Assembly (NCBI RefSeq): GCF_014204325.1
Contig: NZ_JACHKT010000002.1
Location: 1-64,000, forward strand
DNA: 64,000 nt
From: Arcicella rosea
GTDB taxonomy: Bacteria; Bacteroidota; Bacteroidia; Cytophagales; Spirosomataceae
Direction of reading: 5' to 3'
Below the pieces are notes generated by a model that was given only the letters and a program-made list of their open reading frames with translations, was not told where the DNA came from and made no database searches. This document shows, in pieces, positions 8,594-55,917 of the stretch (the first letter of the stretch is position 1; every line of letters starts with the position of its first letter). The position numbers and the translations under genes were made by a program.

Positions 8594-8617
8594 AGCTGAC
8601 AGCTGAGGGCTGAAAAC
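8594..8617. repeat. heptamer-phased intergenic repeat (murG-ftsW spacer)
   Basis: AGCTGAC, AGCTGAG, GGCTGAA follow each other with an exact 7-nt period in the 93-nt spacer between ftsW and murG. It is one of at least ten such loci in the window (see findings). Confidence 0.6.
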
Positions 8618-9760
8618 TTATAAAATTGGATTGTTTACTTTGTCTCTACTCACTGCAATGATAATTCCGACCATTGCACCTGTAAACAAAAGGGAGCTTC
8701 CCCCCATACTTAGTAATGGTAAGTTTTGCCCAGTAACAGGGCCTAAGCCAGTAGCAACACCCATGTGGACCATTGCTTGAATTACCAAACTAAAGGTTAG
8801 CCCAGCCGAAAGTAATCCCCCGAAGGCTCGCCCAGAACTATCGACGGCTTTCATCCCTCGATACAAAAACCAGAGATAAAGCCCCAAAACAAATACTCCG
8901 CCAATCATTCCCCATTCTTCGATAATGATGGCGTAAATAAAGTCAGATTCAGATTCTGTCAAGAAGTATCGTTGTTGACTTTTACCTGGCCCTTTTCCTA
9001 AAACTCCACCGTTGGCGATGGCGTAAAAACTCCGTTCAATTTGATAATCAGAAGTTTGTGAAGCGTCTTTTTTCTTTGTTCCTTTTAATCCACTGGCAAA
9101 GTTGATAACACGGTTTCTGGCTGTTTCGATACGGCTACCTGTACCTGTCATAACCAATAAAGTTGCCGTAATGAAAATACCCGCTAATGCCAATAGTAAA
9201 TATTGGCTTGGTACTCTTCCGAAAAACATCAACAAAAAACAAGTGGTAAATAAAAGCAAAGAAGTAGAAACGTTGGTGAGTGCAATTGCCGAACAGACCA
9301 AAATGATTTTTACAATCATCGGTAAAATTTCATTAAAAGTATAACTCACGTGTTGTCGCTTGGCTAACATTGCCGCCAAATTGGTAATTAATGATAATTT
9401 GGCTAAATCGGAAGGCATAAATGTTAAACCACCAACGTGAATCCAACGATTGGCATGGTTAATTCCTTGTTCAAATTTATAGGCATAAATCAAGAGAGCA
9501 AAAGATAGAATTACACCCGCATTAGAATACATGGCAAAACGATGATAGTCTAGTCGGTGAAAAAACCACATCGAACCAAGCCCCAGCGAAACCAAAATAA
9601 TGTGTTTAAAGATATGATAAAAAATACCTCCACTAGCCATTACCGCTAATTTCCCAGATGCACTCGATACGACGATAATACTTATCATCGACAAAGCTGC
9701 AACGATAGTCCATATTTGATGATCGCCTTTAAGATTACTTTTTAACCAATTTGTCACCAT
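8618..9760 (-). CDS. ftsW: SEDS-family peptidoglycan glycosyltransferase FtsW
   Basis: A polytopic inner-membrane protein of 380 aa with about ten hydrophobic segments, starting MVTNWLKSNLKGDHQIW. Family signatures include LTFMPSDLAKLSL, RVPSQYLLL, YQIERSFYAIANGGVLGKGPG, ESESDFIYAIIIEEWG (the conserved DFI..EE region) and GPVTGQNLPLLSMGGSS. SEDS proteins polymerise lipid II into glycan strands; with murD and murG on either side the cell-division paralogue FtsW is more likely than RodA. Spacing to murD is 30 nt, consistent with an operon. Confidence 0.93.
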   Translation of the reverse strand: MVTNWLKSNLKGDHQIWTIVAALSMISIIVVSSASGKLAVMASGGIFYHIFKHIILVSLGLGSMWFFHRLDYHRFAMYSNAGVILSFALLIYAYKFEQGINHANRWIHVGGLTFMPSDLAKLSLITNLAAMLAKRQHVSYTFNEILPMIVKIILVCSAIALTNVSTSLLLFTTCFLLMFFGRVPSQYLLLALAGIFITATLLVMTGTGSRIETARNRVINFASGLKGTKKKDASQTSDYQIERSFYAIANGGVLGKGPGKSQQRYFLTESESDFIYAIIIEEWGMIGGVFVLGLYLWFLYRGMKAVDSSGRAFGGLLSAGLTFSLVIQAMVHMGVATGLGPVTGQNLPLLSMGGSSLLFTGAMVGIIIAVSRDKVNNPIL

Positions 9761-9790
9761 TTTTCAATGAATTTTGAAATAATATTTTGT

Positions 9791-11134
9791 TTAAGCGATT
9801 GTCAATGCAGATACAGCCGCTTTAAATTGTCGTCCTCTATCTTCGTAATTTTTGAATAAATCAAAGCTTGCACAAGCGGGCGAAAGTAAAACTACATCGC
9901 CTTCTGTGGCTATTTCTTGCCCAAGCGCAACTGCTTTTTGCATACTATCTACCGAGAAAATCAAGGGTACTTTTTTACCAAAGTAATCTAATAATTTTTG
10001 ATTATCCGTTCCCATGCAAATCAAGGCTTTTACTTTTTGTTCAATCAAAGCTTCAATTTGGCTGTAATCATTACCTTTATCAACACCGCCCATAATTAGG
10101 ACAATTGGGTCGTTAAAACTTCCAAGTGCATAAAAAACAGAGTCAACATTTGTCGCTTTTGAATCGTTGACAAATTTTACGCCTCCAACTTCTCCGCAAG
10201 GTTCAAGGCGATGCTCTACACTTTTGAATGATTTTAATCCTTCTGCAATTTTATCGTTTTCAATATCCAATACTTTTGCAACCAAAATAGCAGACATTGC
10301 ATTGATAGCATTGTGCGAACCTTTGATAGGCAAATCTTCTAAAGCAAATGAGAAATGATTTTCTTTATAAGTAACCTCAAGCTTTTCGTTTTGTAAACTT
10401 CCACCTTGTGGTACTTTTCCTTGTAATGAAACTGGGAGATAATTGATTGGAAATGTTTTTTTTGTTAATTCATTGGCAAGAGCTTCACTTTCTTGATAAA
10501 AAATAAAGTTATCAGAAGGTGTCATATTTTGTAATATTCTGAATTTAGAATCTATATAATTCTGAAATTCATAATTATATCTGTCCAAATGGTCGGGCGT
10601 GATATTCAATAAAATAGCAATATCTGCTTTGAATTCGAAACAATTATCCAACTGAAAACTGCTAAGTTCCAATACAAAATAATCTAGCGTATCATCAATT
10701 ACTTGTTTAGCAAAACTATAGCCAATATTACCAGCCAAGCCGACATTCAGCCCTGCATTTTTGAGTAAATGATACGTTAAAAGTGTTGTCGTTGTTTTTC
10801 CGTTACTTCCTGTAATCGCAATAATTTTTGCTTTTGTATATCTTGAAGCCAACTCAATTTCTGAAATAATTGGGATTCTCAATGATTTCAACTTCTGAAC
10901 TAAAGCAACTTTATCAGGAATTCCTGGGCTTTTCACTACTTCATCGGCATCTAAAATTTGTTCTTCTGTATGTTGTCCTTCTTCAAAAAGAATATCATTT
11001 TGATTCAAAATTTCTTTATACTTATCCGATAAAATACCTTTATCCGACAAAAACACCTTAAAGCCTTTTGCTTTTGCCAATAAAGCTGCCCCAACACCAC
11101 TTTCACCTCCGCCCAAGATTGCGATTTTTTTCAT
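9791..11134 (-). CDS. murD: UDP-N-acetylmuramoyl-L-alanine--D-glutamate ligase
   Basis: MurD adds D-glutamate to UDP-MurNAc-L-Ala in the cytoplasm using ATP. Three Mur-ligase domains are visible: an N-terminal Rossmann-like domain (ILGGGESGVGAALLA), the ATP-binding P-loop GSNGKTTTT (109-117) with VLELSSFQL and LNITPDHLDRY, and a C-terminal domain containing FVNDSKATN and the IMGGVDKGNDY motif. The C terminus LLSPACASFDLFKNYEDRG is characteristic of MurD. The length of 447 aa is normal. It is the first gene of the murD-ftsW-murG run. Confidence 0.97.
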   Translation of the reverse strand: MKKIAILGGGESGVGAALLAKAKGFKVFLSDKGILSDKYKEILNQNDILFEEGQHTEEQILDADEVVKSPGIPDKVALVQKLKSLRIPIISEIELASRYTKAKIIAITGSNGKTTTTLLTYHLLKNAGLNVGLAGNIGYSFAKQVIDDTLDYFVLELSSFQLDNCFEFKADIAILLNITPDHLDRYNYEFQNYIDSKFRILQNMTPSDNFIFYQESEALANELTKKTFPINYLPVSLQGKVPQGGSLQNEKLEVTYKENHFSFALEDLPIKGSHNAINAMSAILVAKVLDIENDKIAEGLKSFKSVEHRLEPCGEVGGVKFVNDSKATNVDSVFYALGSFNDPIVLIMGGVDKGNDYSQIEALIEQKVKALICMGTDNQKLLDYFGKKVPLIFSVDSMQKAVALGQEIATEGDVVLLSPACASFDLFKNYEDRGRQFKAAVSALTIA

Positions 11135-11213
11135 ATTCCAGACTTTTGTTATTCTCTAAAGATTCAATTTGCAAAGTAACCAAAAACTCTGCCCTCTTCT
11201 AATATTTTTGATG

Positions 11214-11252
11214 GAAAAATAAAAGCCCAAAGTTATTACACTTCGGGCTTCT
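11214..11252 (-). terminator. mscL terminator
   Basis: On the minus strand AAGCCCGAAGT pairs with ACTTTGGGCTT (arms about 11241-11250 and 11223-11232) and is followed by TTTATTTTT. It lies 26 nt after the mscL stop. Confidence 0.8.
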
Positions 11253-11278
11253 CTGAATCATATTATTAATTTCTATGC

Positions 11279-14374: not shown

Positions 14375-15313
14375 ATGAAAAAAACACTTTTTATCTTATT
14401 AATCATTATTACCCAAAAATCTATTGCTCAAGATTTTAAACCTTACGAGCAAACTATTACAAACACTTCAGTAAAGTACAAGATGATGCCAATTCCCGCT
14501 GGGGAATTTATGTTAGGAAGTCTCGCTTCTGAACAAGGACATGAAGTAGATGAAAGCCCACAAGTAAAAGTAAAAATTGAAGCTTTTTGGATGGGTGCTT
14601 ATGAGGTTACTTACGATGAATATCAATTATTTTTTGAAGAAGAAAGAGACCCAGAACCTAGACCTGATGCCATTACTCGTCCTAGTCCTCCGTACATAGA
14701 TTTTACTTTGGGAATGGGTAAAGTAGGTGGTTTTCCTGCTAATTCAATGCAACAATACGCCGCTGTGATGTACTGTAAATGGTTATATTACAAAACAGGA
14801 ATCTTTCACAGATTGCCAACAGAAGCTGAATGGGAATATGCTTGTCGTGCAGGAAGCAATACGGCGTACTTTTTTGGAAATGATGCTTCAAAATTGTCAG
14901 ATTATGCTTGGTTTAAAAGTAATTCTGAAGAGAAGTACCATCATGTAGGGGAAAAGAAACCAAATGCTTGGGGTTTGTACGATATGCTTGGCAATGTAGC
15001 AGAATGGACACTCGACCAGTACGACGAAACATTTTATCAGAAAATACAAGCAGGCGAAACCAATCCTTATAATATAAAACTAAAACGTTATCCAAGTACT
15101 GTAAAAGGTGGCAATTACCAAGATGAAGCTATTCAATTAAGAAGTGCTAATCGCCTGAAATCAGATGCAGTTTGGAATAGGAGAGACCCACAGATTCCCA
15201 AAAGTAAATGGTGGAATGCTGATTCTCCTTTTGTAGGTTTCAGAATTATTCGTCCTGTAAAACAGCCCACAAAAGAAGAAGTGGAAGCTTTTTTTGAGAA
15301 AATGTTAAAATAA
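14375..15313 (+). CDS. exported SUMF1/formylglycine-generating-enzyme-like protein
   Basis: A signal peptide (MKKTLFILLIIITQKSIAQ) precedes a SUMF1/FGE-sulfatase domain covering almost the whole 312-aa protein: PIPAGEFMLGSLASEQGHE, MGAYEVTYDEYQLF, RLPTEAEWEYACRAG, WGLYDMLGNVAEWTLD and the terminal GFRIIRP. The C-terminal segment (RSANRLKSDAVWNRRD...) lacks the cysteine pair that binds copper in true formylglycine-generating enzymes, so sulfatase activation is unlikely. Such exported SUMF1 proteins in Bacteroidota are usually structural or of unknown function. A -7 box TAATTTTG lies at 14341-14348. It is followed by a MocA-type gene on the same strand after a heptamer-repeat spacer. Confidence 0.88.
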   Translation: MKKTLFILLIIITQKSIAQDFKPYEQTITNTSVKYKMMPIPAGEFMLGSLASEQGHEVDESPQVKVKIEAFWMGAYEVTYDEYQLFFEEERDPEPRPDAITRPSPPYIDFTLGMGKVGGFPANSMQQYAAVMYCKWLYYKTGIFHRLPTEAEWEYACRAGSNTAYFFGNDASKLSDYAWFKSNSEEKYHHVGEKKPNAWGLYDMLGNVAEWTLDQYDETFYQKIQAGETNPYNIKLKRYPSTVKGGNYQDEAIQLRSANRLKSDAVWNRRDPQIPKSKWWNADSPFVGFRIIRPVKQPTKEEVEAFFEKMLK

Positions 15314-15319
15314 ATTTTA

Positions 15320-15438
15320 GCTTTCGGTCATCGGCTTTCAGTCGTCGGCTTTGGTCTTTTGCTTTTGGGTATTTGATGAACGAAAACTAAAACGCATCAA
15401 CTAATATCCGAAATCCGACGACCGAAAGCCGAATTCCA
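15320..15438. repeat. heptamer-phased inverted repeat (SUMF1-MocA spacer)
   Basis: Left arm: GCTTTCG, GTCATCG, GCTTTCA, GTCGTCG, GCTTTGG, TCTTTTG, CTTTTGG in exact 7-nt register (15320-15368). Right arm: ATATCCG, AAATCCG, ACGACCG, AAAGCCG, AATTCCA (15404-15438), the near reverse complement of the left. The arms can fold into a long imperfect hairpin ending 32 nt before the next ATG. Confidence 0.75.
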
Positions 15439-17956: not shown

Positions 17957-18201
17957 CGAAATAGATACCTCCAATCCCCGATGGAGTATTTGTTTTTGGT
18001 TTAAACGGTTCATTATTGGGGGACAGTCGATAATGAACAAGAACACTGTTGATGCACGTACATGAGATTAACGCAAGATAGCCTAAGATGGTTTTGATTG
18101 GAAAAATATTTCTGAATGGATATTGTGCTTTTTCTAATCAAGAATCAAGACAAATGATAGGAGTGAGGACTTATTTAGCACAAAGAATGGCTAAATACAA
18201 A

Positions 18202-18423
18202 TTGCGGTTTTTTTCACTTTTGTACGGGAAATTGCGTGAAAAAGATGGGCAAGCCTATCTCCGAGATAGGATGTCCTATCTTTTTCACGCAAAAAACCGC
18301 AAAAATGATAGGTCAAGCTATCTCTGAGATAGCTTGACCTATGAAAATGATGGAATGACCTATCTCCGAGATAGCTCGTTGGTTCTTTTTGATGGATTTG
18401 TCTATGAAAAAGATAGGTTGATG
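18202..18423 (-). repeat. palindrome-rich dispersed element, copy A
   Basis: About 222 nt built of nested palindromes with CTATCTC/GAGATAG cores. A 35-nt perfect palindrome lies at 18308-18342 (17-nt arms, centre 18325). A nested hairpin occupies 18234-18290: outer arms of 13 paired bases, GCGTGAAAAAGAT with ATCTTTTTCACGC, enclosing CCTATCT/AGATAGG at 18254-18270. The reverse complement matches 29370-29590 with about 29 differences and no evident indel (about 87% identity). ORFs are open on both strands through it, as expected from its symmetry; I do not believe they are genes. Confidence 0.85.
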
Positions 18424-18486
18424 TGTTTTTGAGATAGATTTTCCGTACTCTTACATACAAGGAGATTGTAGCGGAAATTTCTTAGT

Positions 18487-18855: not shown

Positions 18856-19102
18856 TTGTGAATGAGTGAGTTAGTGAATGAGTGATTTTGTTGTACGAAG
18901 GTTTAGATTTGTCTTTAAATCGAAAATTGATGTAGCGGCAAACCCTTGCGGTTGCCGTACTCAAAACGGCAACCGCAAGGGTTTGCCGCTACAAAATGTT
19001 AATTTAAGAACTCATTTGAACAAAATTAAACCTTTCGTAAAGATCTAATGATTGATTGAAAATATTAATCACTCATTCACCAAATCACACAATCACTAAA
19101 TG
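18856..19102. repeat. octamer-phased inverted repeat pair upstream of pcrA
   Basis: GTGA recurs every 8 nt (GTGAATGA, GTGAGTTA, GTGAATGA) in about 18858-18885. Its reverse complement TCAC recurs every 8 nt in about 19069-19098. The two arms flank the 28-bp hairpin at 18931-18993. The rest of this 389-nt intergenic stretch shows no gene. Confidence 0.6.
18931..18993. repeat. perfect 28-bp GC-rich hairpin
   Basis: Arms 18931-18958 and 18966-18993 are perfect reverse complements (TGTAGCGGCAAACCC... and its mirror) with the 7-nt loop ACTCAAA. It is far more GC-rich than its surroundings and has no T tail. It resembles a REP-type extragenic palindrome rather than a normal terminator. Confidence 0.8.
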
Positions 19103-26389: not shown

Positions 26390-27892
26390 ATGAAATCAAG
26401 AATTTTATCTATATTTTTTATTAGTCTTTTTGCATTATCTTGTTCAAAAGAAGTTGAAAGAACATCACTTCGCCCATTAGTCCCAACAAGTAATGAGCCC
26501 AACGCTGGTACTTGGAAAATGTATTTTGGTGTAGCAACCGACTATGCTATTCCAGCACCGAAAGAAACAAGTTCTGCTGAATACAAAGCTGAATTAGCAG
26601 AAGCACAGAAAGTAGCTTCAAATTTAACTGCTGAACAAAAAAGTGCATTAACATACTGGCAAGTTGGTGCCGTAGGTCGTTGGAACGAAATTGCTCGTGA
26701 ACTTATCGCTAGATACAACCTTGCTCCAGAACCAAACGAAAACGGTACTTATTCAGCACCGAATTCAGCTAAACCTGATACTTTACCTTATTTCCCTTTT
26801 GCCAATCCTCCTTATGCTTCAAGAGCTTATGCTTTAATTAGTGTGGCTCAATACGATGCTTTGGTTGCAACTTGGGCTTATAAGTACAAGTACAACAGAA
26901 AAACAAATACAGATGATTTACCAGATTATCCTTCTGAAGATGCTGTTATTGCAGCTGCTTCAAGTAGAGTATTGAAGTTTTTATTTCCAGGAAGTTATCC
27001 AACGCAATTGATTGATAACCGTTATGAAGAAGGTCGTAAAGTAGGCATTTGGGCAGGTAAAAATGTACAAAGTGATGTTGATGCCGCAGATGTTTTAGGA
27101 AAAGCCGTTGCTGATAAAATCATTGCTTATGCAAAAGCTGACGGAACAGGTTCGGCGGGAGGAAACCTTACTATTCAAGCACAAATGGCTGAATCTGCTA
27201 TGGCAAGAGGATTAAAAACTGCTTGGAAAAGTCTTGATATTCCTGCTCGTCCGGGAATGTTAATGAAATTTGGAGAAGTAAAAACTTGGAACTTCGATAA
27301 AGCTACTCGTGATGCCATTCGTCCTGCTGCTCCTCCTGCATTAGATTCTGAAGCTTTCAAAAAAGATTTAGCAGAAGTAAAACATTACGCAAACAATATT
27401 ACTCGTAAACAATGGTCGATTGTACAATTCTGGGCAGATGGCTTGGGTACTTCAACACCTCCAGGACACTGGAATCAGATTGCAATGGATTTAATCAGAG
27501 AGGCAAGTATGTCTGAAATCAGAACAGCAAGAGCTTTGGCATTGATGAATACTGCTATTCATGATGCGGGTGTTTGTTGTTGGGATACCAAATACTACTA
27601 TTTTTATCCAAGACCCAACCAAGTTGACCCAAGTATCAAAACTGCGACAGGAACACCGAATTTCCCAAGTTTTACCTCTGGTCACGCAACATTTTCGGCA
27701 GCTGCGGTTTCTGTACTTTCCTATATCTTTCCTAGCCAACAAACTAGTTTAGATGCAATGGCAAAAGAAGCTTCTGAATCAAGAATTTATGGAGCAATTC
27801 ACTATCGTTTTGATAGCGAAGTAGGTTTAGCTTGTGGCAAGAAAATCGGTGATTTCGCTGTAGCTCGTGGTAAAGCTGATGGTGGCAATTAG
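26390..27892 (+). CDS. PAP2/vanadium-haloperoxidase-like lipoprotein with a degenerate N-terminal copy
   Basis: A lipoprotein signal (ISLFALSC) precedes a 500-aa PAP2-superfamily protein. The C-terminal half holds the intact vanadate/phosphate site: K-x6-RP (K401 to R408-P409 in KYYYFYPRP), SGH (H432) and R-x5-H-x3-D (R465, H471, D475). The N-terminal half repeats the same layout (RAYALISVAQYDA against RALALMNTAIHDA; VLKFLFP against VLSYIFP; ending AKADG against GKADG), but SGH reads SED and the third-motif histidine is lost, so it is a non-catalytic copy. The site fits acid phosphatase or vanadium-dependent haloperoxidase; I cannot decide. It is surrounded by beta-barrel genes, consistent with an envelope role. 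Confidence 0.88.
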   Translation: MKSRILSIFFISLFALSCSKEVERTSLRPLVPTSNEPNAGTWKMYFGVATDYAIPAPKETSSAEYKAELAEAQKVASNLTAEQKSALTYWQVGAVGRWNEIARELIARYNLAPEPNENGTYSAPNSAKPDTLPYFPFANPPYASRAYALISVAQYDALVATWAYKYKYNRKTNTDDLPDYPSEDAVIAAASSRVLKFLFPGSYPTQLIDNRYEEGRKVGIWAGKNVQSDVDAADVLGKAVADKIIAYAKADGTGSAGGNLTIQAQMAESAMARGLKTAWKSLDIPARPGMLMKFGEVKTWNFDKATRDAIRPAAPPALDSEAFKKDLAEVKHYANNITRKQWSIVQFWADGLGTSTPPGHWNQIAMDLIREASMSEIRTARALALMNTAIHDAGVCCWDTKYYYFYPRPNQVDPSIKTATGTPNFPSFTSGHATFSAAAVSVLSYIFPSQQTSLDAMAKEASESRIYGAIHYRFDSEVGLACGKKIGDFAVARGKADGGN

Positions 27893-27957
27893 TGAGTGAT
27901 GAATTGGGAATGTTGAATTGTGAGTTTTCGTATTTCACAATTCAATATTCACAAAGA
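27893..27957. repeat. heptamer-phased inverted repeat (PAP2-barrel spacer)
   Basis: TGAATTG, GGAATGT, TGAATTG, TGAGTTT in 7-nt register are followed by CACAATT, CAATATT, CACAAAG, their near reverse complement. The array starts immediately after the PAP2 stop codon. Confidence 0.55.
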
Positions 27958-32800: not shown

Positions 32801-35376
32801 TTTTCAAAACGCCTTTTGCTGGAAAACTGATTGTGACGGTTGAGCGAAATCACGTGTTAGAAAATTTTGTGATTGAAACTGACAAAAAATCGGCAGAATT
32901 GAGTTTCCCAATTCGGAAAGAACATTTGCCCAATGTGTATGTTTCGGCTACGCTGATTCGTCCTTTGGATGATTCAAATTTGCCGCTGACGGTGGCACAT
33001 GGTTACGCTCCTGTGATGGTGGAAGATGTTGATAATCAATTACCGATTGAAATTGTGGCGGTTGAAAAATCTCGTTCAAAAACCAAACAAAAAATAACGA
33101 TTAAAACCAAAGCCAATACAGAAGTAACGATTGCGGTAGTGGACGAAGGCATTTTGCAATTGAAAAATTTCAAAACGCCCGACCCTTACAATCATTTTTA
33201 CCAAAAACAGGCTTTAGAAGTAAATAGCTTTGATTTATATCCTTTCCTTTTCCCAGAATTATCTATTTCAGGGAGTTCGTCGGTAGGTGGTGATGGTTAT
33301 GATTTGGAAAAAAGAGTCAATCCATTAATCAACGGCAGAGTAAAATTAGTAGCGATTTGGTCGGGCATTGTGAAAACTGGTTTTGGTGGAGAAACTACTT
33401 TTGAAGTCGATATTCCACAGTTTTCTGGCGATTTACGCATCATGGCGGTTGGCTACAAAGACGAAGCATTTGGCTCGGCTACCAAAAACATGAAAGTTGC
33501 CGACCCATTGGTGGTAAGTACTGCTTTGCCAAGATTTGTTTCGCCTAATGATGAAATACAAGTACCCGTAAACATCACCAATACTACCAAACAAAATGCT
33601 TCGGTAAGTGCCAATATTACTTTATCGGGCGGACTGACGGTTACGGGACAAAGAACGCAAAATTTGGTAATTCCAGCAGAAAAAGAAGGTAGAACTTACT
33701 TCTCTGTAAAAGCAGGAGCAATGACGGGCAATGCCGTAGTAAACGTTACAGTAAATGGTTTGAAAGAGAAGTTTACTGAAAAGATTGATTTAACCATTCG
33801 TCCAAGTACTTCTTTACTCAAAACGGCTGTTGCTGGACAAGTAAATGGCGGCGGAACGGCTACGGTAAATTTGGTACATGATTATTTACCAAACAGTATT
33901 AGTTCTGAAATTACCTTGAGTAAATCGCCAATGGTGCAGTTTACCAATCAGTTCCAAAGTTTGTTAGATTATCCTTATGGTTGCGTAGAACAAACTACGG
34001 CTTCGGCTTTTCCACAATTGTACTTTGCCGATTTAGTAAAACAAATTCAGTCGGGCAAAAAGCCTTATATGAAAACAGGCAACAATCAGTTGAATCCACG
34101 CTTTAATGTAGAAACTGCCATTCGTAAATTAGAAACGATGCAATTACCAAGTGGAGGAATGTCGTACTGGCAAGGTGGCGAGCGTGAATCTTGGTGGGGT
34201 TCTGCTTTTGCAACGCACTTTTTGTTGGAAGCTCAGAAAAATGATTTTGAAGTAAATAATACCACTTTGGGCAAATTGATTGAGTACCTCAGCAATCAAT
34301 CTAACACGAAAAAGACCGAAAACGAATATTATTATCAAGGAAGTGGCTTTACGACTAAAGTAATTGCAAGCCGAGAAACCATTTATAGTTTGTACGTTTT
34401 GGCTTTGGCGGGCAAACCCAACCGTTCGGTAATGAATTATTACAAAGCCAATCCGAATATTTTAACAACCGACGAAAAGTATTTATTAGCGGCAGCTTAT
34501 AGTTTGATTGGCGATGTAAGAAGTTACTCAGCCATTTTACCGAAAAGTTATGCTTTTGAACAAACTGAAAAGCAATCTGGTGGAAGTTTCAGCTCGCCTA
34601 TTAGAAATCAGGCTTTGGTATTAAATACTTTGATTGATACCGACCCGAATAATATTCAAATTCCGACTTTGGCAAGACAACTTTCCACAGTACTCAAGCA
34701 AGAACGTTGGCTAACGACGCAAGAGCAATCTTTTGCCTTTTTAGCTTTGGGTAAATTGGCGAAAAAAGCCAACGTAAGCAACATTACTGCTTCGTTGATT
34801 GCCAACGGAAAAGTGGTAGGTAATTTTACGGCAAAAGATTTATTAGTAAAAAATGTCGCTAATCAGTCCCAGATTCGCACGCAAGGAAAAGGTACTTTGT
34901 ATTACTTCGCTCAAGCAGAAGGTCTGAGTGCTTCGGGTAAATACGAAGAAACGGATAATATTTTGAGAGTGCGTAAGCAATTCTATACTCGTTCTGGACA
35001 ACCTTTGGGCGAAGCTAAATTCAAACAAAATCAGTTAATTGTGGTAAAAATCACTTTATCCACATCGAATGGTTTGAATGTGGATAACGTAGTGGTTACG
35101 GATATGCTTCCAGCAGGTTTGGAAATTGAAAACCCAAGATTGAATGCTGATAGAGATTTAGTATGGATAAAAGACCAAAGTACGCCAGAGCATTTTGACA
35201 TTCGAGACGATAGAATTAATTTCTTCACCAATGTTTCGGATAAAACTCAAACCTTCTATTATTTGGTAAGAGCAGTTTCAAAAGGGAAATTCCAAATGGG
35301 ACCAGTTTCAGCAGATGCCATGTATCGTGGAGAGTACAGAAGTTATTCAGGCGGAGGTATTGCGGTGGTGGAGTAA
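29839..35376 (+). CDS. bacterial alpha-2-macroglobulin, thioester-containing lipoprotein
   Basis: The ATG at 29839 begins a lipoprotein signal (LLISFFLLFSC); an upstream in-frame TTG adds 14 residues before it. The 1845-aa protein has a stack of macroglobulin (MG) beta domains, including FVYGDRDIYRPGETINT, an A2M core (LKNFKTPDPY, VAIWSGIVKTGFGGETTFEVDIPQFSGDLRIMAVGY) and an alpha-alpha toroid thioester domain with the intact motif YGCVEQT (thioester Cys at 1382). The family traps attacking proteases by covalent linkage in the periplasm or at the surface. In Proteobacteria the gene pairs with the peptidoglycan synthase pbpC; no pbpC is present in this window. It is full length. Confidence 0.93.
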   Translation: MKTSFSRPKSGLYFLLISFFLLFSCSKFGDVSIRNMNFEDEVQLTQNLVFTFNKDLVKESDLNTWSSEPLIEFSPKVEGKFKWTATNELVFSPAVGFEPATDYSATVLKSILTKAEKDLGLDVDKIKFHTPYLKAENVEAFWTKSREDGQASAMLKVNFNYPVNPQELAKVLVVTDEDGKPQDFQITQSGALSNVLVKLKNQSNASGKSFKITIEKGLSMPNSTFETSEELSLETTLPDIKTLEIIDVQHGFENNQGFIKVITNQSVSAERLQEMYSVTSDGGEKQQETVEEAVVEYDSTGNPIETKTVSVTPEKNNPTLTTKVETIENGFIIRGDFNESDNYILTINKNIKGVLGANLSDEYVKDLYFGQMPASIGFVNKKAIYLSSKGSKNIAVNIVNTPKVNVRIAKVYENNILHFMKNGRYQDYNDYNEETGEYKAGSFMYDTDESGQYSDVIVNKTVETSNLAKTKGVRALNLSLPEQNNIKGIYLVSLNSNDEYYNSATKLVSISDIGLIMKTSENEVVVFANSIKTAEPLRDVEIRLVSSNNQTIQTAKTDSKGIVTFKDLKASGFKVAMISAHTPDDFNYLLMDGSQVETSRFDVEGKRDNTSGFEAFVYGDRDIYRPGETINTNTIIRKQNWESVGEIPVKIRLLLPNGREFKSFRKETNAQGAVALSIPTNTSAITGTYVLEVLNANDVLLASRNIAIEEFMPDRIKVEVKSGKEFYRNGETVQISATALNLFGPPAADRNYEMQFKLKRKRFEAKDFKNYIFDIQDNTNFEDIAREGVTDANGMFKENFQIPATYSNMGVLESKTFVTVFDETGRPVNRLKKLDIFTQSVFYGIGMPDTYISTNVPVQIPLVVVNKDGKLTTAKGKVEIVRFEYQTVIQKNSDNTLKYSSKKQTKVVYSRALSFDNGKTTVAYAPPVSGEYEVRVHSEGAKSWTAQSFYAYGFGSTQNSSFEVNNEGQVEMEFDKEKYNVGDKAKVLFKTPFAGKLIVTVERNHVLENFVIETDKKSAELSFPIRKEHLPNVYVSATLIRPLDDSNLPLTVAHGYAPVMVEDVDNQLPIEIVAVEKSRSKTKQKITIKTKANTEVTIAVVDEGILQLKNFKTPDPYNHFYQKQALEVNSFDLYPFLFPELSISGSSSVGGDGYDLEKRVNPLINGRVKLVAIWSGIVKTGFGGETTFEVDIPQFSGDLRIMAVGYKDEAFGSATKNMKVADPLVVSTALPRFVSPNDEIQVPVNITNTTKQNASVSANITLSGGLTVTGQRTQNLVIPAEKEGRTYFSVKAGAMTGNAVVNVTVNGLKEKFTEKIDLTIRPSTSLLKTAVAGQVNGGGTATVNLVHDYLPNSISSEITLSKSPMVQFTNQFQSLLDYPYGCVEQTTASAFPQLYFADLVKQIQSGKKPYMKTGNNQLNPRFNVETAIRKLETMQLPSGGMSYWQGGERESWWGSAFATHFLLEAQKNDFEVNNTTLGKLIEYLSNQSNTKKTENEYYYQGSGFTTKVIASRETIYSLYVLALAGKPNRSVMNYYKANPNILTTDEKYLLAAAYSLIGDVRSYSAILPKSYAFEQTEKQSGGSFSSPIRNQALVLNTLIDTDPNNIQIPTLARQLSTVLKQERWLTTQEQSFAFLALGKLAKKANVSNITASLIANGKVVGNFTAKDLLVKNVANQSQIRTQGKGTLYYFAQAEGLSASGKYEETDNILRVRKQFYTRSGQPLGEAKFKQNQLIVVKITLSTSNGLNVDNVVVTDMLPAGLEIENPRLNADRDLVWIKDQSTPEHFDIRDDRINFFTNVSDKTQTFYYLVRAVSKGKFQMGPVSADAMYRGEYRSYSGGGIAVVE

Positions 35377-35377
35377 A

Positions 35378-35503
35378 GCTTTCGGTTTTCAGCTTTCGGT
35401 CATCGGCTAATTAAAACAAATCTAAGGGGAAAATTATTGGATAAATTTTCCCCACTAAGATTGAAGAAAAACAATCACTCATTCACAATTCACTCAATCA
35501 CAA
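35378..35503. repeat. heptamer-phased repeats between the A2M and FKBP genes
   Basis: GCTTTCG, GTTTTCA, GCTTTCG, GTCATCG, GCTAATT in 7-nt register at 35378-35412, using the same heptamers as at 15320. A second array of TCAC units lies at 35473-35503, a 31-nt block that is identical to 40712-40742. The gap to the FKBP start holds no gene. Confidence 0.65.
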
Positions 35504-35598
35504 TTAACTATTTTGAACCAAACAAGATTTAAAAAATGTTTCAAACAAAATAAGTAAAAGGCTTTAGGCTACTATCATTTACATTAAACAATCAAAAA

Positions 35599-40330: not shown

Positions 40331-40380
40331 TGACGAAAACTGATAAATTGTATTTTTTTATTTTGAAGACTTTTAAGATT

Positions 40381-40638
40381 TGAGACTTTAGGATTTTAAG
40401 ACTTTAGACTCAAGAGACAAGACGCAAGAATTTTCTTTTTAGATTTTAGGATTTTAAGACTTTAGAGTCAAGAGACAAGAAACAAGAATTTTTTTTTAGA
40501 TTTTAGGATATAAAGACTTTAGATTCAAGAGACAAGACGCAAGAACTTTCTTTTTAGATTTTAGGATTTTAAGACTTTAGATTTAAGAGACAAGACGCAA
40601 GACTTTTCTTTTTGAGATTTTAGGATTCTCTGGTTTTA
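40381..40638. repeat. four tandem copies of a ~58-nt unit with internal 7-8-nt phasing
   Basis: The landmark CAAGAGACAAGA occurs at 40411, 40469, 40526 and (with one change) 40584, giving a unit of 57-58 nt. Each unit contains GACTTTAG, GGATTTTA and AAGACGCAAGA blocks that are themselves spaced at 7-8 nt. No ORF spans it. A related degenerate array is at 51400-51545. Confidence 0.85.
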
Positions 40639-40711
40639 AGACTTGAGGTGAGTGAATATATTACTCACCCTCAAGCTTTAAAAATGGGGAATATTTATTT
40701 GCAAAATTTAA

Positions 40712-40742
40712 AATCACTCATTCACAATTCACTCAATCACAA
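40712..40742. repeat. 31-nt block identical to 35473-35503
   Basis: The two blocks are identical over 31 nt and consist of TCAC units at 7-8-nt spacing. Here the block ends 5 nt before the moxR stop codon. Confidence 0.85.
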
Positions 40743-40746
40743 CTAA

Positions 40747-41880: not shown

Positions 41881-41926
41881 AGCTCACAATTCATCACTCA
41901 TAATTCACAACTCATAATTCTTAATC
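41881..41926. repeat. heptamer-phased repeat (DUF4350-moxR spacer)
   Basis: TCACAAT, TCATCAC, TCATAAT, TCACAAC, TCATAAT, TCTTAAT in exact 7-nt register, ending next to the DUF4350 stop codon. The remaining spacer holds no gene. Confidence 0.65.
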
Positions 41927-43181
41927 AGGTCTTTTGATAAAAATCTTCAATGTATTTATTCAATTTGATTAAGTCTTTTTCTGTTACTTTTTCACTGGCT
42001 TGGATATTTTCAACATAATCAAAAAGTTCGTTAATTTCAGCGATAGTTAAATTAGTTTTTCTACTTAAATCATCTCTAAACTCTTGGTCGATTACGGTTG
42101 TTTTTAGGTGGAATTTGTTCCTGATATACGCCAACAAGTAGGTAATTTTCTTTACTGAAATAGCTTGATGGTCTTTCTGATTATAATACAAAGCACCAAT
42201 TGTTTCTACGAAAGCTAATGAAGTATTTTGTGGTGTTTCGATGATTGGAATAATTCTTTGTTTCCGTTTTCCTTCAAAAATCAAGTAAATAAATAGCGAT
42301 GCTAAAGTAATAAAATAAGCACATTTCAAAGCTGGCTGACTTACAATAAACTTGAAGGGAGAAGTATCAATATCGTCGTCTTCACCTTTTGCATTTTTAG
42401 CTTTCAAAATACTTCTGTCCTTTTTTCCAAAGCCAACGATGCTTACATATTCATCCCAAAAAACTTGGTTTTCGGGTAAGTATGAAAGTGCCTTGAACGC
42501 ATAATCTGCATTATTATCTTTCACCAAATAAAAGTTTGAAAAAGCTTTAGGAGTTGTACTCAAGTAAAAAGAACCTTTGCCAAAATTTATTTTGATAAAA
42601 TTGGGTTTACCATCGTAGTTTTTGCCCAAAATTTCAGCATTCGTTTTGATAATTACTTTCTTCAAACTATCCTTTGGTAAATCAAGTGAAAAGTAACTTC
42701 CTATTGATTGATGATGATAAAGATAAGGCTTATTGGGCTTGAGGGCTGGATTTTCTAAACTGATATTAACAGAATCTTTGGTGAATTTCCGAAGATAAGC
42801 CGTTTCAAAATGTAGTGTATCGTTTAGTCCGTAAAAATCTTCGGCAGCGATAAAAGCATTATTTCCAGCACCGACATACGCTAACAACTTTTTGAGGTTG
42901 ATGGAATCTGCCCTGAAGTACTGATAAACATAGATATAATTACTCTTTCGGTTTTTCCAAGCTGCTTTTTTGTGGTAAATCGGTACTTTACTATCTGATA
43001 TTTGCTGATTTCTAAATACTTGTGGAAGCAGTTTATACAATAGTTCGCAACCATAAGGAATTTTGTCCTTACTTGAATAAGTCTGAGTCCAATCGATGGG
43101 TTTTGGTTTGTAGATTTCTACCAAAACGAAGCCAAGAACGGTTGAAAAAAGGATTAGAAGATACAAACGGTGTTTTTTCAT
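41925..43181 (-). CDS. DUF4350 domain-containing membrane protein
   Basis: An N-terminal signal-anchor (about residues 4-22, RLYLLILFSTVLGFVLVEIY) is followed by a DUF4350 domain (PIDWTQTYSSKDKIPYGCELLYKLLP, typical of the family's glutamine-amidotransferase-like fold) and a second membrane helix around residues 273-292 (LKCAYFITLASLFIYLIFEGK), leaving a cytoplasmic C-terminal helical part. It is part of the MoxR cluster and overlaps nothing; the gap to the next gene upstream (43184) is 2 nt, so they are translationally coupled. Function is unknown, probably partner of the MoxR/DUF4129 set. Confidence 0.88.
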   Translation of the reverse strand: MKKHRLYLLILFSTVLGFVLVEIYKPKPIDWTQTYSSKDKIPYGCELLYKLLPQVFRNQQISDSKVPIYHKKAAWKNRKSNYIYVYQYFRADSINLKKLLAYVGAGNNAFIAAEDFYGLNDTLHFETAYLRKFTKDSVNISLENPALKPNKPYLYHHQSIGSYFSLDLPKDSLKKVIIKTNAEILGKNYDGKPNFIKINFGKGSFYLSTTPKAFSNFYLVKDNNADYAFKALSYLPENQVFWDEYVSIVGFGKKDRSILKAKNAKGEDDDIDTSPFKFIVSQPALKCAYFITLASLFIYLIFEGKRKQRIIPIIETPQNTSLAFVETIGALYYNQKDHQAISVKKITYLLAYIRNKFHLKTTVIDQEFRDDLSRKTNLTIAEINELFDYVENIQASEKVTEKDLIKLNKYIEDFYQKT

Positions 43182-49139: not shown

Positions 49140-50441
49140 ATGTCACCAACAACTAAAAAAACTGAAATACTTGCAGGCATAAGTTCATTTTTAGCCACGA
49201 TGTACATTATCATCGTCAATCCTTCTATACTTTCTCAAGCAGGAATGCCATTTGATGCCGTGCTGACGGCCACCGTTTTACTTTCATTCTTTTGTAGTTT
49301 GATGATGGGCTTGTATGCCAAAAACCCAATTGTGGTTGCTCCAGGCATGGGAATGAATGCTTTTTTTACTTTCACAGCCGTAAAAGGCATGGGAATTTCC
49401 TATCAAGTTGCTTTGGGAGCAGTATTTTGGGCAGGTGTTTTTTTCTTATTTTTGTCGATTTTTAATTTGCGTACTTATATCGTAAAGGCAATTCCTAAAC
49501 CACTTCGTTTTGCCATTTCTGCGGGAATTGGTTTGTTTATTAGCCTTATCGGTTTTGAAAATGCACATTTTATCGTTTCAAATCCTGTTACTTTGGTGAG
49601 CATTGCCAGTTTTCATAATCCGATTGTTATTACTTTTTTAATTGGTTTATTGCTGACAGCGGTTTTGGTAGTTCGAGAAGTAAAAGGTGCGATTATTATC
49701 GGAATTGTTATTACTACTTTATTGGCAATTCCTATCGGAAGAATTTGGGGAGATGCTTCAGCCATTAATTTCGGACAAAAAACTTTAGTCAATTGGAATG
49801 GACTTATCGCTTCGCCAGATTTTAGTTTACTTTTTCAATTAGACATCATTGGTTCGTTCAAATTTGCTTTGTTTCCTATCATTTTTGCTTTTGTGTTTAC
49901 TGATATGTTTGATAGCCTTTCTACTTTTGTAGGTTTGGCAGAAGCGGCTTACTTGTACGACGAAAACGGTGAACCACGAAATATTAAGCAATCTTTATTG
50001 ACCGACGCTGTCGCAACTTTGTTGGGGGGTATTTTAGGAACAAGTCCCGGAACGGCTTATATAGAATCAGCCGTGGGTATTGAACAAGGCGGACGAAGAG
50101 GTTTAACGGCTATTACGGCAGGGATTTTGTTTTTGCCTTTTATGTTTTTATCGCCTTTATTGTCGGTGATTCCTTCCATTGCTACGGCTCCCGCTTTAAT
50201 ACTTGTTGGAGTATTTATGATGAAACCCATTACTAAAATCAGTTGGTCGAAAATGGATGATGCCATTCCTGCTTTCTTGGCTTTGGTACTGATTCCTTTT
50301 TCTTACTCCATCACACAAGGAATTATTTGGGGTTTTCTTTCTTGGACAATCATCAAAGTATTCACAGGAAAACACAAAGAAGTTTCAATGGCTCTTTGGG
50401 TGATTGATGCTTTTGCGGTATTGTCATTAATTATTTCTTGA
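49140..50441 (+). CDS. NCS2-family purine permease (AzgA-like)
   Basis: 433 aa with about 12-14 membrane segments. The conserved elements AMYIIIVNPSIL, VVAPGMGMNAFFTF, SAGIGLFISLIGFENAHF, DMFDSLSTFVGLAEAAYLYDENGEPRNIKQSLLTDAVATLLGGILGTSPGTAYIESAVGIEQGGRRGLTAI are typical of the AzgA branch (adenine, guanine, hypoxanthine uptake by proton symport). The next gene is an exported MTA/SAH-nucleosidase-like protein, which would release adenine in the periplasm, so together they look like a purine-salvage pair. Confidence 0.93.
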   Translation: MSPTTKKTEILAGISSFLATMYIIIVNPSILSQAGMPFDAVLTATVLLSFFCSLMMGLYAKNPIVVAPGMGMNAFFTFTAVKGMGISYQVALGAVFWAGVFFLFLSIFNLRTYIVKAIPKPLRFAISAGIGLFISLIGFENAHFIVSNPVTLVSIASFHNPIVITFLIGLLLTAVLVVREVKGAIIIGIVITTLLAIPIGRIWGDASAINFGQKTLVNWNGLIASPDFSLLFQLDIIGSFKFALFPIIFAFVFTDMFDSLSTFVGLAEAAYLYDENGEPRNIKQSLLTDAVATLLGGILGTSPGTAYIESAVGIEQGGRRGLTAITAGILFLPFMFLSPLLSVIPSIATAPALILVGVFMMKPITKISWSKMDDAIPAFLALVLIPFSYSITQGIIWGFLSWTIIKVFTGKHKEVSMALWVIDAFAVLSLIIS

Positions 50442-50442: not shown

Positions 50443-50550
50443 GTGATTAGTGATTGGTTATTAGTGATTAGATTTCTGCCATAGATAGTAAAATTCTAAT
50501 TGCGAAATCCAACCCTAATCACCAATTACTAATCACCAATCACTCAATCA
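50443..50550. repeat. heptamer-phased inverted repeat (permease-nucleosidase spacer)
   Basis: GTGATTA, GTGATTG, GTTATTA, GTGATTA in 7-nt register (50443-50470) and, after a 44-nt spacer, CTAATCA, CCAATTA, CTAATCA, CCAATCA, ending CTCAATCA (50515-50550). The right arm is a near reverse complement of the left and stops 2 nt before the next ATG. Confidence 0.8.
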
Positions 50551-50552: not shown

Positions 50553-51338
50553 ATGAAAAAAGTACTTTTATTCCTCTTCATCAGTTTACAAATTCAAGCT
50601 CAAAAGCCTTTAACAGCCATTTTAGGAGCATTTAGTCAAGAAGTAAAATTGTTGGAGGATTCACTAAGTAATAAAAAAGAAGTAAATCTAAAAGGTATTC
50701 GTTTCTTGACGGGAGAATTACGTGGACGTTCCGTAGTTGTTGCTTTAACAGGCGTTGGCAAAGTAAATGCCGCCATGACGACCAGTATTTTATTGATGAA
50801 ATGGAATCCCGAACAATTGATTTTCACAGGAATCGCAGGCGGCATTCATCCAGATTTACAACCGGGCGATATTGTAATCGCAAAAGCTACTTTTGAACAT
50901 GATTTTGGAAAAATAGATTCTACAGGTTTTACCTTGCGTGCTACTCGAAATCCTGGATATATTGAATTAAATCCGATTTACTTTCCTGCGGATGAAATCT
51001 TGCTGAAAAAAGCAAAAAGTATTTCCAACAAAACAAAGTATAAAATTGTAGGAAACAGAAACCTAAAAGTAATGACAGGAACAATTGCGACTGGCGATGT
51101 TTTTGTGAATTCTAATCAGAAAGTAGAAGAATTAAGACTGAAATACGGTGCAGATGCTACAGAAATGGAAGGTGCTGCCGTGGCACAAGTATGTTATCAA
51201 CAGAAAATTCCTTGCTTGGTCATCAGAAGTATCAGCGATAATGCCAATTCAAAAGCACATTTAGACATGAAAACTTTTGAATTTGTGGCAGCATACAATT
51301 CTGCAAGTTTGGTTTTGGGTATTTTAGGAAGTTTATAA
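50553..51338 (+). CDS. exported 5'-methylthioadenosine/S-adenosylhomocysteine nucleosidase-like protein
   Basis: A signal peptide (MKKVLLFLFISLQIQAQ) precedes a PNP/MTAN-type nucleosidase: ILGAFSQEV, GVGKVNAAM, IFTGIAGGIHPDLQPGDIVIA, ATEMEGAAVAQV (the purine-binding Glu) and IRSISDNANSKA with the catalytic Asp of the SDNA-type motif. Cytoplasmic MTANs cleave MTA, SAH and 5'-deoxyadenosine to adenine; this one has an export signal, which is unusual. The preceding purine permease fits import of the released base. 261 aa including the signal is a normal length. Confidence 0.9.
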   Translation: MKKVLLFLFISLQIQAQKPLTAILGAFSQEVKLLEDSLSNKKEVNLKGIRFLTGELRGRSVVVALTGVGKVNAAMTTSILLMKWNPEQLIFTGIAGGIHPDLQPGDIVIAKATFEHDFGKIDSTGFTLRATRNPGYIELNPIYFPADEILLKKAKSISNKTKYKIVGNRNLKVMTGTIATGDVFVNSNQKVEELRLKYGADATEMEGAAVAQVCYQQKIPCLVIRSISDNANSKAHLDMKTFEFVAAYNSASLVLGILGSL

Positions 51339-51399: not shown

Positions 51400-51575
51400 A
51401 GCAAGATTTTAGAGACAATACGCAAGACTTTGGACTTGAAGACCTTAGGACTAGAAGACCTTAGGAATTTAGGACTGGAGGAATTTGGAGTTTCAAAAAC
51501 AAGATTCATTACTTTAGGATTTTAGACTTGAATTATAAATACAAGAAACAAAAAAGCTCATAGCTCAAGGCTAAT
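51400..51575. repeat. degenerate 7-8-nt phased repeats (nucleosidase-kinase spacer)
   Basis: GAC units recur every 7-8 nt (GACTTTG, GACTTGAA, GACCTTAG, GACTAGAA, GACCTTAG) from about 51426, resembling the array at 40381-40638. The end is AGCTCAT, AGCTCAA, GGCTAAT in 7-nt register (51555-51575), stopping 4 nt before the kinase ATG. Confidence 0.65.
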
Positions 51576-54695: not shown

Positions 54696-54702
54696 TGTCG
54701 AT

Positions 54703-54984: not shown

Positions 54985-55160
54985 TATTCTAGCATTAAAT
55001 AGAATTATTGTTTGTGCAAAAATATCAACATAATTTATTGAATTTCGTTGAATTATCTTCTTTAAATTAATTTCACGCTGACTTTTGACAAATTATTCTT
55101 ACTGATATTGTCAATAAAAGCACTTCATTGAAAAAAACTCATCAAAATCTTTCATAACTA
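54985..55160. other. intergenic region without a recognised gene
   Basis: AT-rich spacer between the divergent small Cys-rich gene and the ribosomal operon promoter. It holds a -7-like TATTTTTG on the minus strand (complement of 55017-55024) that may serve the small gene. Nothing else is seen. Confidence 0.5.
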
Positions 55161-55191
55161 TTTGTATATTAAGAAGAAAGCCGTAATTTTG
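55161..55191 (+). promoter_or_regulatory. promoter of the rplK operon
   Basis: TTTG (55161-55164), a 19-nt spacer and TAATTTTG (55184-55191) match the Bacteroidota sigma-A consensus almost perfectly. It predicts a start near 55197 and a 5' leader of about 180 nt. Confidence 0.75.
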
Positions 55192-55196
55192 CAGTC

Positions 55197-55375
55197 CGTT
55201 TCATAGACCAGTTAGGTAAAAAGTATGAATAAGTACTTTCAAATGACTGTGAATCAGATTGTTTAGTTACAAAATAATCTACATGAAATAGACCGAGGAT
55301 TTTCAGGTAAGGAAGCTTCCACCCTTATTGGCAGAAAATTTTCAATAACTCAAACGATTTTAAATTTTTACCATA
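55197..55375 (+). promoter_or_regulatory. ~180-nt rplK leader, possible autoregulatory region
   Basis: The leader between the predicted start site and the rplK ATG contains several short inverted repeats (for example AGATT...AATCT around 55256-55281 and GGAAGCTTCC near 55311) and TTTCAT/ATGAAA arms. Leaders of L11-L1 operons usually carry an L1-binding mimic of 23S rRNA; I could not confirm one by eye. It is not a tRNA. Confidence 0.35.
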
Positions 55376-55813
55376 ATGGCAAAAGAAATAGCAGGCTACG
55401 TAAAGTTGCAATGCAAAGGTGGTGCCGCTAACCCATCACCCCCAATTGGTCCAGCCTTGGGTTCTAAGGGTTTGAATATCATGGAGTTCTGTAAGCAGTT
55501 CAATGCTAGAACACAAGATAAACCAGGTGTTATTCTTCCAGTTTTGATTACTTACTACAAAGACAAATCTTTTGAATTCGTAGTTAAGACTCCTCCTGCA
55601 CCAATTTTGTTGTTGGAAGCAGCGAAAGTGAAATTGGGTTCTGCTCAACCAAACTTGAAAAAAGTTGGTTCAGTATCTTGGGATCAAGTTCGTACTATCG
55701 CAGAAACAAAAATGCCTGATTTAAACTGTTTCACCATCGAATCAGCAATGAGCATGGTAGCAGGTACAGCTCGCTCAATGGGCTTGAACGTAACAGGAGA
55801 AAAACCTTTTTGA
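55376..55813 (+). CDS. rplK: 50S ribosomal protein L11
   Basis: 145 aa. Signatures [38 protein letters not shown] (N-terminal domain, proline-rich loop of the thiostrepton site) and the C-terminal rRNA-binding part [28 protein letters not shown]. It binds 23S rRNA at the GTPase-associated region and takes part in factor binding and the stringent response. It heads rplK-rplA-rplJ-rplL. The usual upstream secE and nusG genes are absent here. The stop codon TGA is the first triplet of a heptamer array. Confidence 0.98.
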
Positions 55814-55917
55814 GTTATGAGTTATGAGTTATGAGTTGTGAGTTGAAATGAGGACATATACACAAATAATCCAGTTTTAATCAATAACTAATAACTAATC
55901 ACTAATAACCAATAACG
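55811..55917. repeat. heptamer-phased inverted repeat between rplK and rplA
   Basis: TGAGTTA x3 and TGAGTTG x2 in perfect 7-nt register start within the rplK stop codon (55811-55845). After a short spacer come AATAACT x2, AATCACT, AATAACC and AATAACG (55883-55917), the near mirror of the left arm. This 115-nt spacer is abnormal for rplK-rplA, which are normally a few to tens of nt apart. Confidence 0.85.

Follow-up and report, generated by a model that had tools for sequence, protein, structure and literature searches.

Inverted arms of seven-nucleotide words between the genes of Arcicella rosea, kept in step and position and changing in sequence

The intergenic DNA of Arcicella rosea raises the question of how a repeat can keep its step and its place beside genes while its unit sequence changes from locus to locus. 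In a stretch of 64,000 nucleotides (nt) of this genome (RefSeq assembly GCF_014204325.1, contig NZ_JACHKT010000002.1, positions 1 to 64,000; hereafter “the window,” part of contig C2 of the 5.3-Mb genome G000), a first-pass annotation had noticed tandem repeats of varying units that maintain a 7-nt phase. This observation is real, and the repeats are more ordered than was claimed; the fixed step with changing units, the intergenic position and the paired arms were all recovered. The explanation favored here, to which we give about an even chance, is that they belong to hairpin elements of ~60-200 bp, each with a short core flanked by a pair of inverted arms, which are composed of tandem 7-nt (or 8-nt) words, and filling spacers up to the gene edges, and that these elements are mobile or rewritable by fold-back copying combined with 7-nt slippage.

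Gene edges were taken throughout from the longest open reading frames (ORFs) of at least 80 amino acids (60 amino acids for the context of Bacteroides oleiciplenus elements) and not from annotation. Across the 45 intergenic regions of the window, identity at lag 7 was 0.334, compared to 0.298 in dinucleotide shuffles (z=7.8), followed by lag 5 (z=-3.6) and lag 14 (z=+3.4). Strong lag-7 windows numbered 38 against a shuffle mean of 0.4, and further strong windows were found at lags 14 (39), 16 (26), 15 (15), and 9 (10). In 855 kb of G000, comprising 583 intergenic regions, the excess at lag 7 rose to z=19.0 over shuffles and was accompanied by lags 14 (z=9.7), 8 (z=8.7), 21 (z=7.4), 15 (z=6.0), and 3 (z=5.0), so that a second phase of 8 and 15 nt exists alongside 7/14/21. 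Strong lag-7 stretches occurred in 21/583 of these intergenic regions, compared to 2.7 and at most 8 in shuffles, and in 4/717 ORFs, the latter being a raw count as the shuffles covered intergenic sequence only. The first-pass annotation had considered the pattern a reading artifact if shuffled intergenic sequence should show the same at lag 7; because the excess is present in both the window and the 855 kb, a chance reading is set aside. Two Bacteroides contigs also showed an excess at lag 7 (z=8.7), together with lags 4 (8.8), 8 (7.6), and 11 (7.1), which makes the periodicity there less specific.

Sixteen stretches cut around the originally listed coordinates were each compared with 500 shuffles. 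Nine were significant singly, with at most 9/500 shuffles as good (15320, 19069, 27893, 35378, 41881, 50443, 50515, 55811, and 55883), and three were weak, with 19 to 27 (8594, 18856, and 51400-51575). The list did not hold for the remaining four, which were not significant at lags 7, 8 or 14: 35473 and 40712 are near-copies of one another (39 nt, 95% identical) with a period of 15, 40381 is a 58-nt repeat, and 15404 pairs with the arm at 15320.

The arrays of G000 mostly consist of inverted arms that fill a spacer from one gene edge to the other. The left arm starts at the edge of the left gene, with words such as GTGATTA, TGAGTTA, GCTTTCG, GGATTTC, CAAGACG, and the 8-nt words ATTTGAAG and GGACTTTA, and the right arm stops at the edge of the right gene, carrying the complement of G-type words. 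The arms initially described as mirror images are indeed paired, but they are reverse complements. The statement that the loci are not simple copies holds only in part, since one word recurs at many of them. Polarity was analyzed for 92 array segments in 71/567 spacers of up to 700 nt; array counts here and below hinge on detector thresholds, and the detector overlooks elements visible by eye (at the Bacteroides sites L288 in G009, L283 in G010, and L290 in G014). Within 25 nt of the left edge, G exceeded C in 29/33 arrays, equaled it in four and fell below it in none; over the same distance from the right edge, C exceeded G in 36/38. Assignment by the nearer edge alone gave the same polarity for 32/43 (left) and 42/49 (right) arrays, several of the exceptions being, by eye, right arms within long spacers or AT-rich runs. 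Arrays were found in 12/87 stop-stop, 51/374 stop-start, and 8/106 start-start spacers. In 57 spacers, the two arms of one spacer had 6.8 6-mers in common, compared to 2.8 between spacers. Five window stretches were folded as RNA: four beat 200/200 shuffles, and for the fifth, 35374-35515, 4/200 shuffles were as good; in 40613-40746, one of the four, the stem is formed by sequence other than the heptamer arm. The whole 50443-50546 element folds with z=-7.5.

The element between the ribosomal protein genes rplK and rplA allows a comparison of one site among relatives. Sequences read from 30 of the 39 genomes in a search, G003 being the genus member left out, revealed arrays in all seven genus members read and in 1/23 other relatives (G321, of the same family), with spacers of 109-164 nt; in the remaining 22 genomes, the spacers measure 4-71 nt and the detector found no arrays. 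The word is TGAGTTA in G000, G007, and G001, ATTTGAAA in G002, CAGTTAT in G005, CAGTTAT/CAGGAAA in G004 and G006, and of the AATTTGAG type in G321. The bases directly ahead of rplA are alike in most of the genus, indicating that the arms occupy whatever portion of the spacer translation can spare. Such elements are a source of spacer growth within an essential operon. Judged from these sequences, the rplK-rplA element agrees with the picture of changing words at a kept site that is described below for Bacteroides. A further member of the family, G313, has an rplK-rplA spacer of only 20 nt; elsewhere in this genome (C6, 2746882-2747150), the TGAGTTA arm matches repeatedly at a step of 21, with 89% identity each time, which suggests a long array of about 270 nt.

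In Bacteroides, a 901-nt query around one B. oleiciplenus (G008) element gave 11 to 106 matches in 9/10 genomes, the elements being fewer than the matches because the query element is nearly palindromic and many places were matched on both strands. These elements share a ~26-nt core, GGCTGCGC...GCATGG, which is present in both orientations and is flanked by varied arm words, including GTGATTA, AAATATT, AAAATTA, ACAATTG, GGTATTA, TACTATT, and ACGATTT (57 rows compared, many of them doubled and a few located in coding-like sequence). The arms of an element mirror each other's unit variants: in a filtered set of 25 elements, a few of them orthologues, 25.16/28 positions were identical, compared to 23.90 after permutation (maximum of 5000 permutations 24.68). 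Four GTGATTA elements of B. oleiciplenus (L280, L281, L282, and C4_498332) are nested in a second palindromic element, whose ends resemble AAATGATAATTTA...TAAATTATCATTT and GCGAAGCGGAGCTTCG.

Orthologous sites were compared for 16/23 G008 elements with clean flanks in up to four relatives each; L282 gave no relative, leaving 15 sites and 43 comparisons. With one detector, 22 comparisons were occupied, 16 had no array, and 5 had spacers of 16 nt or less. The occupancy of 22/43 contrasts with 7/93 in orthologous spacers not picked for an element (p=3e-8), a base rate derived from a G008 contig comparison of 93 orthologous pairs with few arrays, where one of the seven lies inside overlapping genes and two are the same site (a G008 GTGATTA site without L-number) in two relatives. 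GTGATTA was kept in 12 of the occupied comparisons, and another word was present in 10, eight of which have a short core motif, although some of these matches may be chance because the motifs are only six to seven letters long. Other-word occupancy alone still amounts to 10/31 against 7/93 (p=0.0014, kinship of the genomes ignored). The L294 site shows five words in five genomes; the L283 site of G011 has a core of the same kind, flanked by GGAGAAG; and L288, L289, and L292 carry GCTACAA/GCTACGA words in G009. The site without L-number has GTGATTA arms in G008 and G009, an ACAAG-type word in G010 and, as far as two broken contigs show, also in G014, and an unrelated inverted sequence in G011. 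Unrelated insertion as the whole story at these spacers is set aside on the basis of 22/43 against 7/93; it may apply to single sites.

Differences in the word extend to both arms. Among 57 spacers, each no shorter than 60 nt, from the 16 Bacteroides sites and rplK-rplA, taken with or without a detected array, the arms of the same genome pair with a mean of -30.1 kcal/mol, compared to -13.0 for arms combined from genomes with dissimilar sequences (126 pairings) and -12.9 for shuffled ends; native pairing was stronger than chimeric pairing in 108/126. Arms with different words consequently pair no better than shuffled ones, which implies that both arms have changed. Retention of pairing despite sequence change would also be expected if selection acted on a hairpin as transcription terminator, mRNA end or insulator, leaving the sequence free. 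The location of 13/23 B. oleiciplenus elements between convergent genes (own ORF calls) and the unrelated hairpin-like sequences found at L298 in G009 and G010 are in line with such selection. Nevertheless, this explanation is regarded as unlikely: termination should be harmful within rplK-rplA, where an element resides, arrays occur in start-start spacers, empty sites exist, and a hairpin requires neither the replacement of whole words nor a fixed 7-nt step.

Whole units change as well. One heptamer is shifted at L286 in G010, and in G014 each arm is longer by one heptamer at L289, while L298 has 21 additional nt. That whole heptamers come and go between related genomes is thereby supported, with the exception of L287 in G014, where an 18-nt duplication is not a multiple of 7 and breaks the whole-unit rule. 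At L283, the core is exactly inverted between G008 and G014 within flanks that are 99-100% identical. Empty sites could be aligned for L293 (two genomes) and L297 (one genome), and no target-site duplication was present at either; the L293 element replaces about ten bases at the gene end and provides the stop codon.

The scattered Bacteroides copies with their common core, the empty sites, and two elements on one viral-collection contig (see below) are features that would be expected of classical small transposable elements of the miniature inverted-repeat (MITE) or repetitive extragenic palindromic (REP) type, moved by a transposase that binds the heptamers. REP and BIME elements are associated with a tyrosine transposase. 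The corresponding Y1 family (PF01797), the sole transposase family searched, was present in 6/9 genomes, the window's own included, and was not found in G009, G011, and G014 (the last a 4.5-Mb bin that may be incomplete), all three of which carry heptamer elements. Target duplications are lacking at the two aligned empty sites and, unlike terminal repeats, the arm words vary at one site, which makes this explanation highly doubtful. The special case of REP elements driven by REP-associated tyrosine transposases was set aside because PF01797 was not found in 3/9 genomes and the tag is not constant: GTAG (either strand) occurs in 5/25 Bacteroides cores and CGTC in 0/25.

The small replacement without target duplication at L293 is, on the other hand, predicted if a telomerase-like or terminal polymerase adds G-type words to DNA 3' ends and two such ends are joined, yielding a G-type left and a C-type right arm. 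This scenario likewise predicts the polarity, spacers with two words, composite arms, and the changed gene order at 50443, and a bacterial reverse transcriptase that makes tandem repeats does exist according to the passages compared (DRT10, 9 nt in one case; PMC12632851). However, addition at independent ends predicts neither mirrored unit variants nor the conserved Bacteroides core, and it is therefore judged quite improbable; nothing in this analysis ties DRT10 to the hairpin elements.

The word GTGATTA is far-flung yet patchy. A scan of named genomes with a strict GTGATTA hairpin pattern returned at least 120 stretches, and the 80 loci listed come from Bacteroidota, Oscillospiraceae, Betaproteobacteria, Chloroflexi, Planctomycetes, Gemmatimonadetes, Cyanobacteria, and one genome labeled Thermoplasmata archaeon, many of them being metagenome bins whose labels may be wrong. 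The listed loci range in G+C from 0.28 to 0.68 and are mostly located between genes by crude ORF calls; they contain 111 matches of normal and 0 of swapped polarity, having been picked by the normal pattern. Among 296 genomes of the window's phylum, the strict hairpin was found in two, including the window's own, and a swapped-polarity pattern of equal degeneracy in none. A contig of the IMG/VR viral collection (L371) carries two GTGATTA hairpins (5865-5934 and 9911-9975) and is a possible vehicle.

This distribution also bears on replication slippage, by which the arrays would be ordinary simple-sequence repeats with a 7-nt step, tolerated in spacers as harmless. Whole heptamers are gained and lost as slippage would have it, and one survey reported heptamers as the most frequent long simple repeats in the majority of its genomes (Mrazek, 2007, as given in passages of PMC4679880). 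Fixed-step slippage alone, one of the two origins initially proposed, is nonetheless not supported as stated because the arms share words, mirror each other's unit variants (in Bacteroides), switch words together, and keep one polarity, and because the same word occurs in distant phyla; neither same-word inverted arms nor a shared core would result from it. As a full explanation, it is considered quite unlikely. The other origin initially proposed, an unknown heptamer-adding process, is a possibility.

In the favored explanation of mobile or rewritable hairpins, slippage is one component. An element would spread and re-enter sites as a folded strand, and within the hairpin one arm would be copied from the other, by which any new word or unit variant would come to stand in both; misalignment by one word would add or remove whole heptamers. 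The edge position would be a by-product, the arms occupying what gene ends and translation starts leave free. Several words contain a stop codon, and insertion near the 3' end of a gene would thus close the reading frame at once. Genome annotations contain repetitive short ORFs, for which heptamer elements may account.

A number of observations weigh against this explanation. Neither a transposition event nor a single-stranded intermediate nor an enzyme was observed, the transposase search comprising the Y1 family only. In Bacteroides, 21/43 comparisons were not occupied, and the base rate of 7/93 takes in gene pairs with almost no spacer, which renders the enrichment lenient; a permissive spacer that received independent insertions one after another could also show different words at one site. 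A first test of mirror order, in which cores were mis-registered and some duplicated, had given no clear effect (22.04 vs 21.73; maximum of 2000 permutations 22.15). Among the listed arrays of the window's genome, no shared core was seen by eye, the common core having been found in Bacteroides only. Composite arms occur in some spacers, and there are spacers with two vocabularies (C2 35377, C3 235161, and C2 276112) as well as others with a single arm, which fold-back copying yields only with a later change.

A further-reaching proposal is that a bacterial process writes and rewrites G-type words of seven or eight letters, replacing both hairpin arms as a unit without altering position, step, polarity, or (in Bacteroides) the core, and that it operates in many phyla. 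We hold this to be possible, though doubtful. If true, it would amount to a self-copying hairpin whose heritable information is structure and step, not sequence; a process conserving complementarity and step instead of sequence would be unusual among mobile elements.

The features of the window are compiled in Table 1. The genes flanking the 50443-50546 element are adjacent in the window and 12-13 kb apart in G001 and G003, placing the element at a change of gene order; a broader synteny comparison with G001-G003 (25 best matches, 8 pairs) was too small for use. Inside the core of the 18858-19101 element lies a distinct palindrome (18931-18993) of the kind TAGCGGYAA...CCTTGCGGTT, which is also situated between heptamer arms, as if inserted, in G000 at C2 230840-231130 and C3 216167-216401. 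A thiamine pyrophosphate (TPP) riboswitch (RF00059, 40220-40316, minus strand, 71 bits) is located upstream of the minus-strand ORF 37637-40129, and the 58-nt repeat sits just past it. This riboswitch was the sole match in an Rfam search of the window and five Bacteroides loci; the elements match no family, and known Rfam families were set aside on these grounds. The window further contains a pair of 231-nt inverted repeats (18199-18429 and 29363-29593; 87% complementary, 10.9 kb apart), perhaps a dispersed element.

Table 1. Heptamer and octamer features of the window; n/500 is the number of shuffles, out of 500, that were as good as the native sequence.
Position	Strand	Feature	Evidence
8592..8617	-	Weak array AGCTGACAGCTGAGGGCTG, at stop of minus-strand ORF 8618-9760	11/14 at lag 7; 19/500
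15317..15352	+	Left arm, words GCTTTCG/GTCATCG, 3 nt past stop of 14375-15313	2/500; pairs with 15404-15437, stretch fold z=-5.2
15404..15437	-	Right arm CCGACGACCGAAAGCCGAA, complement of 15317-15352 arm	Pairing; own periodicity not significant, 150/500
18858..18887	+	Left arm, 8-nt phase, GTGAATGA/GTGAGTTA	30 nt, 87% complementary to 19067-19096; 25/500
19067..19101	-	Right arm, 8-nt phase, partner of 18858-18887	9/500
27892..27925	+	Short degenerate left arm, at stop of ORF 26390-27892	Lag 14, 7/500
35374..35408	+	Left arm AGCTTTC/GGTTTTC/GGTCATC, at stop of macroglobulin-like gene 29797-35376	0/500
35471..35511	-	Right arm of other vocabulary, TCACTCA/ACAATTC, period 15, before FKBP gene 35599-36036	95% identical to 40712-40750; lags 7, 8, 14 not significant, 396/500
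40379..40627	+	58-nt tandem repeat of AGACTTTA/GGATTTTA (8 nt) and CAAGACG/CAAGAGA (7 nt)	4.3 copies, 90%; lag-7 part not significant, 121/500
40712..40746	-	Right arm adjoining stop of minus-strand ORF 40747-41724, near-copy of 35473	378/500
41883..41925	-	Right arm AATTCAC/AACTCAT adjoining stop of minus-strand ORF 41925-43181; no left arm seen	0/500
50443..50473	+	Left arm GTGATTA GTGATTG GTTATTA GTGATTA, 1 nt past stop of permease gene 49140-50441	0/500
50474..50508	.	Core of 50443-50546 element	Sequence
50509..50546	-	Right arm TAATCAC/CAATTAC, 6 nt ahead of start of phosphorylase gene 50553-51338	2/500
51424..51486	+	8-nt-phase array AAGACCTTAGGACTAG	Weak, 27/500
55803..55848	+	Left arm TGAGTTA x3 TGAGTTG x2; rplK (L11, 55376-55813) ends with its first TGA as stop codon	0/500
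55849..55874	.	Core of rplK-rplA element	Sequence
55875..55919	-	Right arm AATAACT/AATCACT/AATAACC, ending 9 nt ahead of rplA start (L1, 55929-56627)	3/500

Heptamer repeats have a history in several bacterial groups. Mazel is said to have described cyanobacterial short tandem repeats in 1990, heptamers located between genes as single arrays. The first-pass annotation regarded the present form as undescribed, which is not the case for inverted GGGAATC pairs with this polarity (PMC4692102) and for TAACTGA before start codons (PMC4679880). For the replacement of words, the parts of these sources compared gave no description. Word replacement or rewritable arms were also not mentioned in the titles and abstracts shown by searches of open-licence literature, and a search for the repeat sequences themselves gave no paper. 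Word replacement in both arms at a fixed site is hence the part for which these searches found no description, and arm rewriting is the bolder, unproved case.

As far as the passages compared go, the individual systems resemble the elements in different respects. The (GATAGRA)n satellites of Chloroflexus are likewise heptamer-derived tandem arrays, with no paired arms described there (PMC6749651). REP/BIME sequences are short, dispersed, palindromic, and intergenic as here, but carry a GTAG or CGTC tag (PMC3733652). DRT10 produces DNA of short tandem repeats whose motifs vary in length and sequence, but as cDNA in phage defense, and genomic arrays do not appear in those passages (PMC12632851). 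Long simple sequence repeats, in which heptamers are over-represented, are intergenic as well but differ as single arrays explained by slippage (Mrazek, 2007, via PMC4679880). TAACTGA repeats were reported ahead of start codons in Beggiatoaceae, Cyanobacteria, and some Bacteroidetes, patchy across phyla; two close Cyanothece strains differ in them mostly by 7-nt indels (MacGregor, 2015; PMC4679880). They share with the present elements the 7-nt units, intergenic position, 7-nt indels, and patchiness, and their word occurs at rplK-rplA of G005 as CAGTTAT; they differ in that the passages present them as direct repeats of one word, possibly regulatory, with related words rare in that genome and one inverted repeat only.

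A further resemblance is to the GGGAATC and GGGGA(T/C)T heptamers of Xanthomonas and Nostoc, which in the passages compared occur as inverted convergent pairs, 70 in one Xanthomonas and 75 in another, with few paired repeats in Nostoc. Those close to a stop are on the coding strand and those close to a start on the non-coding strand (Rehm et al., 2015; PMC4692102). The same passages cite an earlier GTGATTA heptamer in Helicobacter pylori. These repeats were interpreted as G-quadruplex (G4) sequences built on one G-rich word, and neither a core nor word replacement at orthologous sites is described there, whereas GGG runs, the quadruplex feature looked for, are absent from the words of the window (GTGATTA, TGAGTTA, GCTTTCG, and others). 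Both have 7-nt units, intergenic location, inverted convergent pairs, and the same polarity at gene edges. If heptamer repeats are arms of one kind of hairpin with replaceable words, the separate reports of single words would merge into one phenomenon, whose mechanism could be tested by comparing strains.

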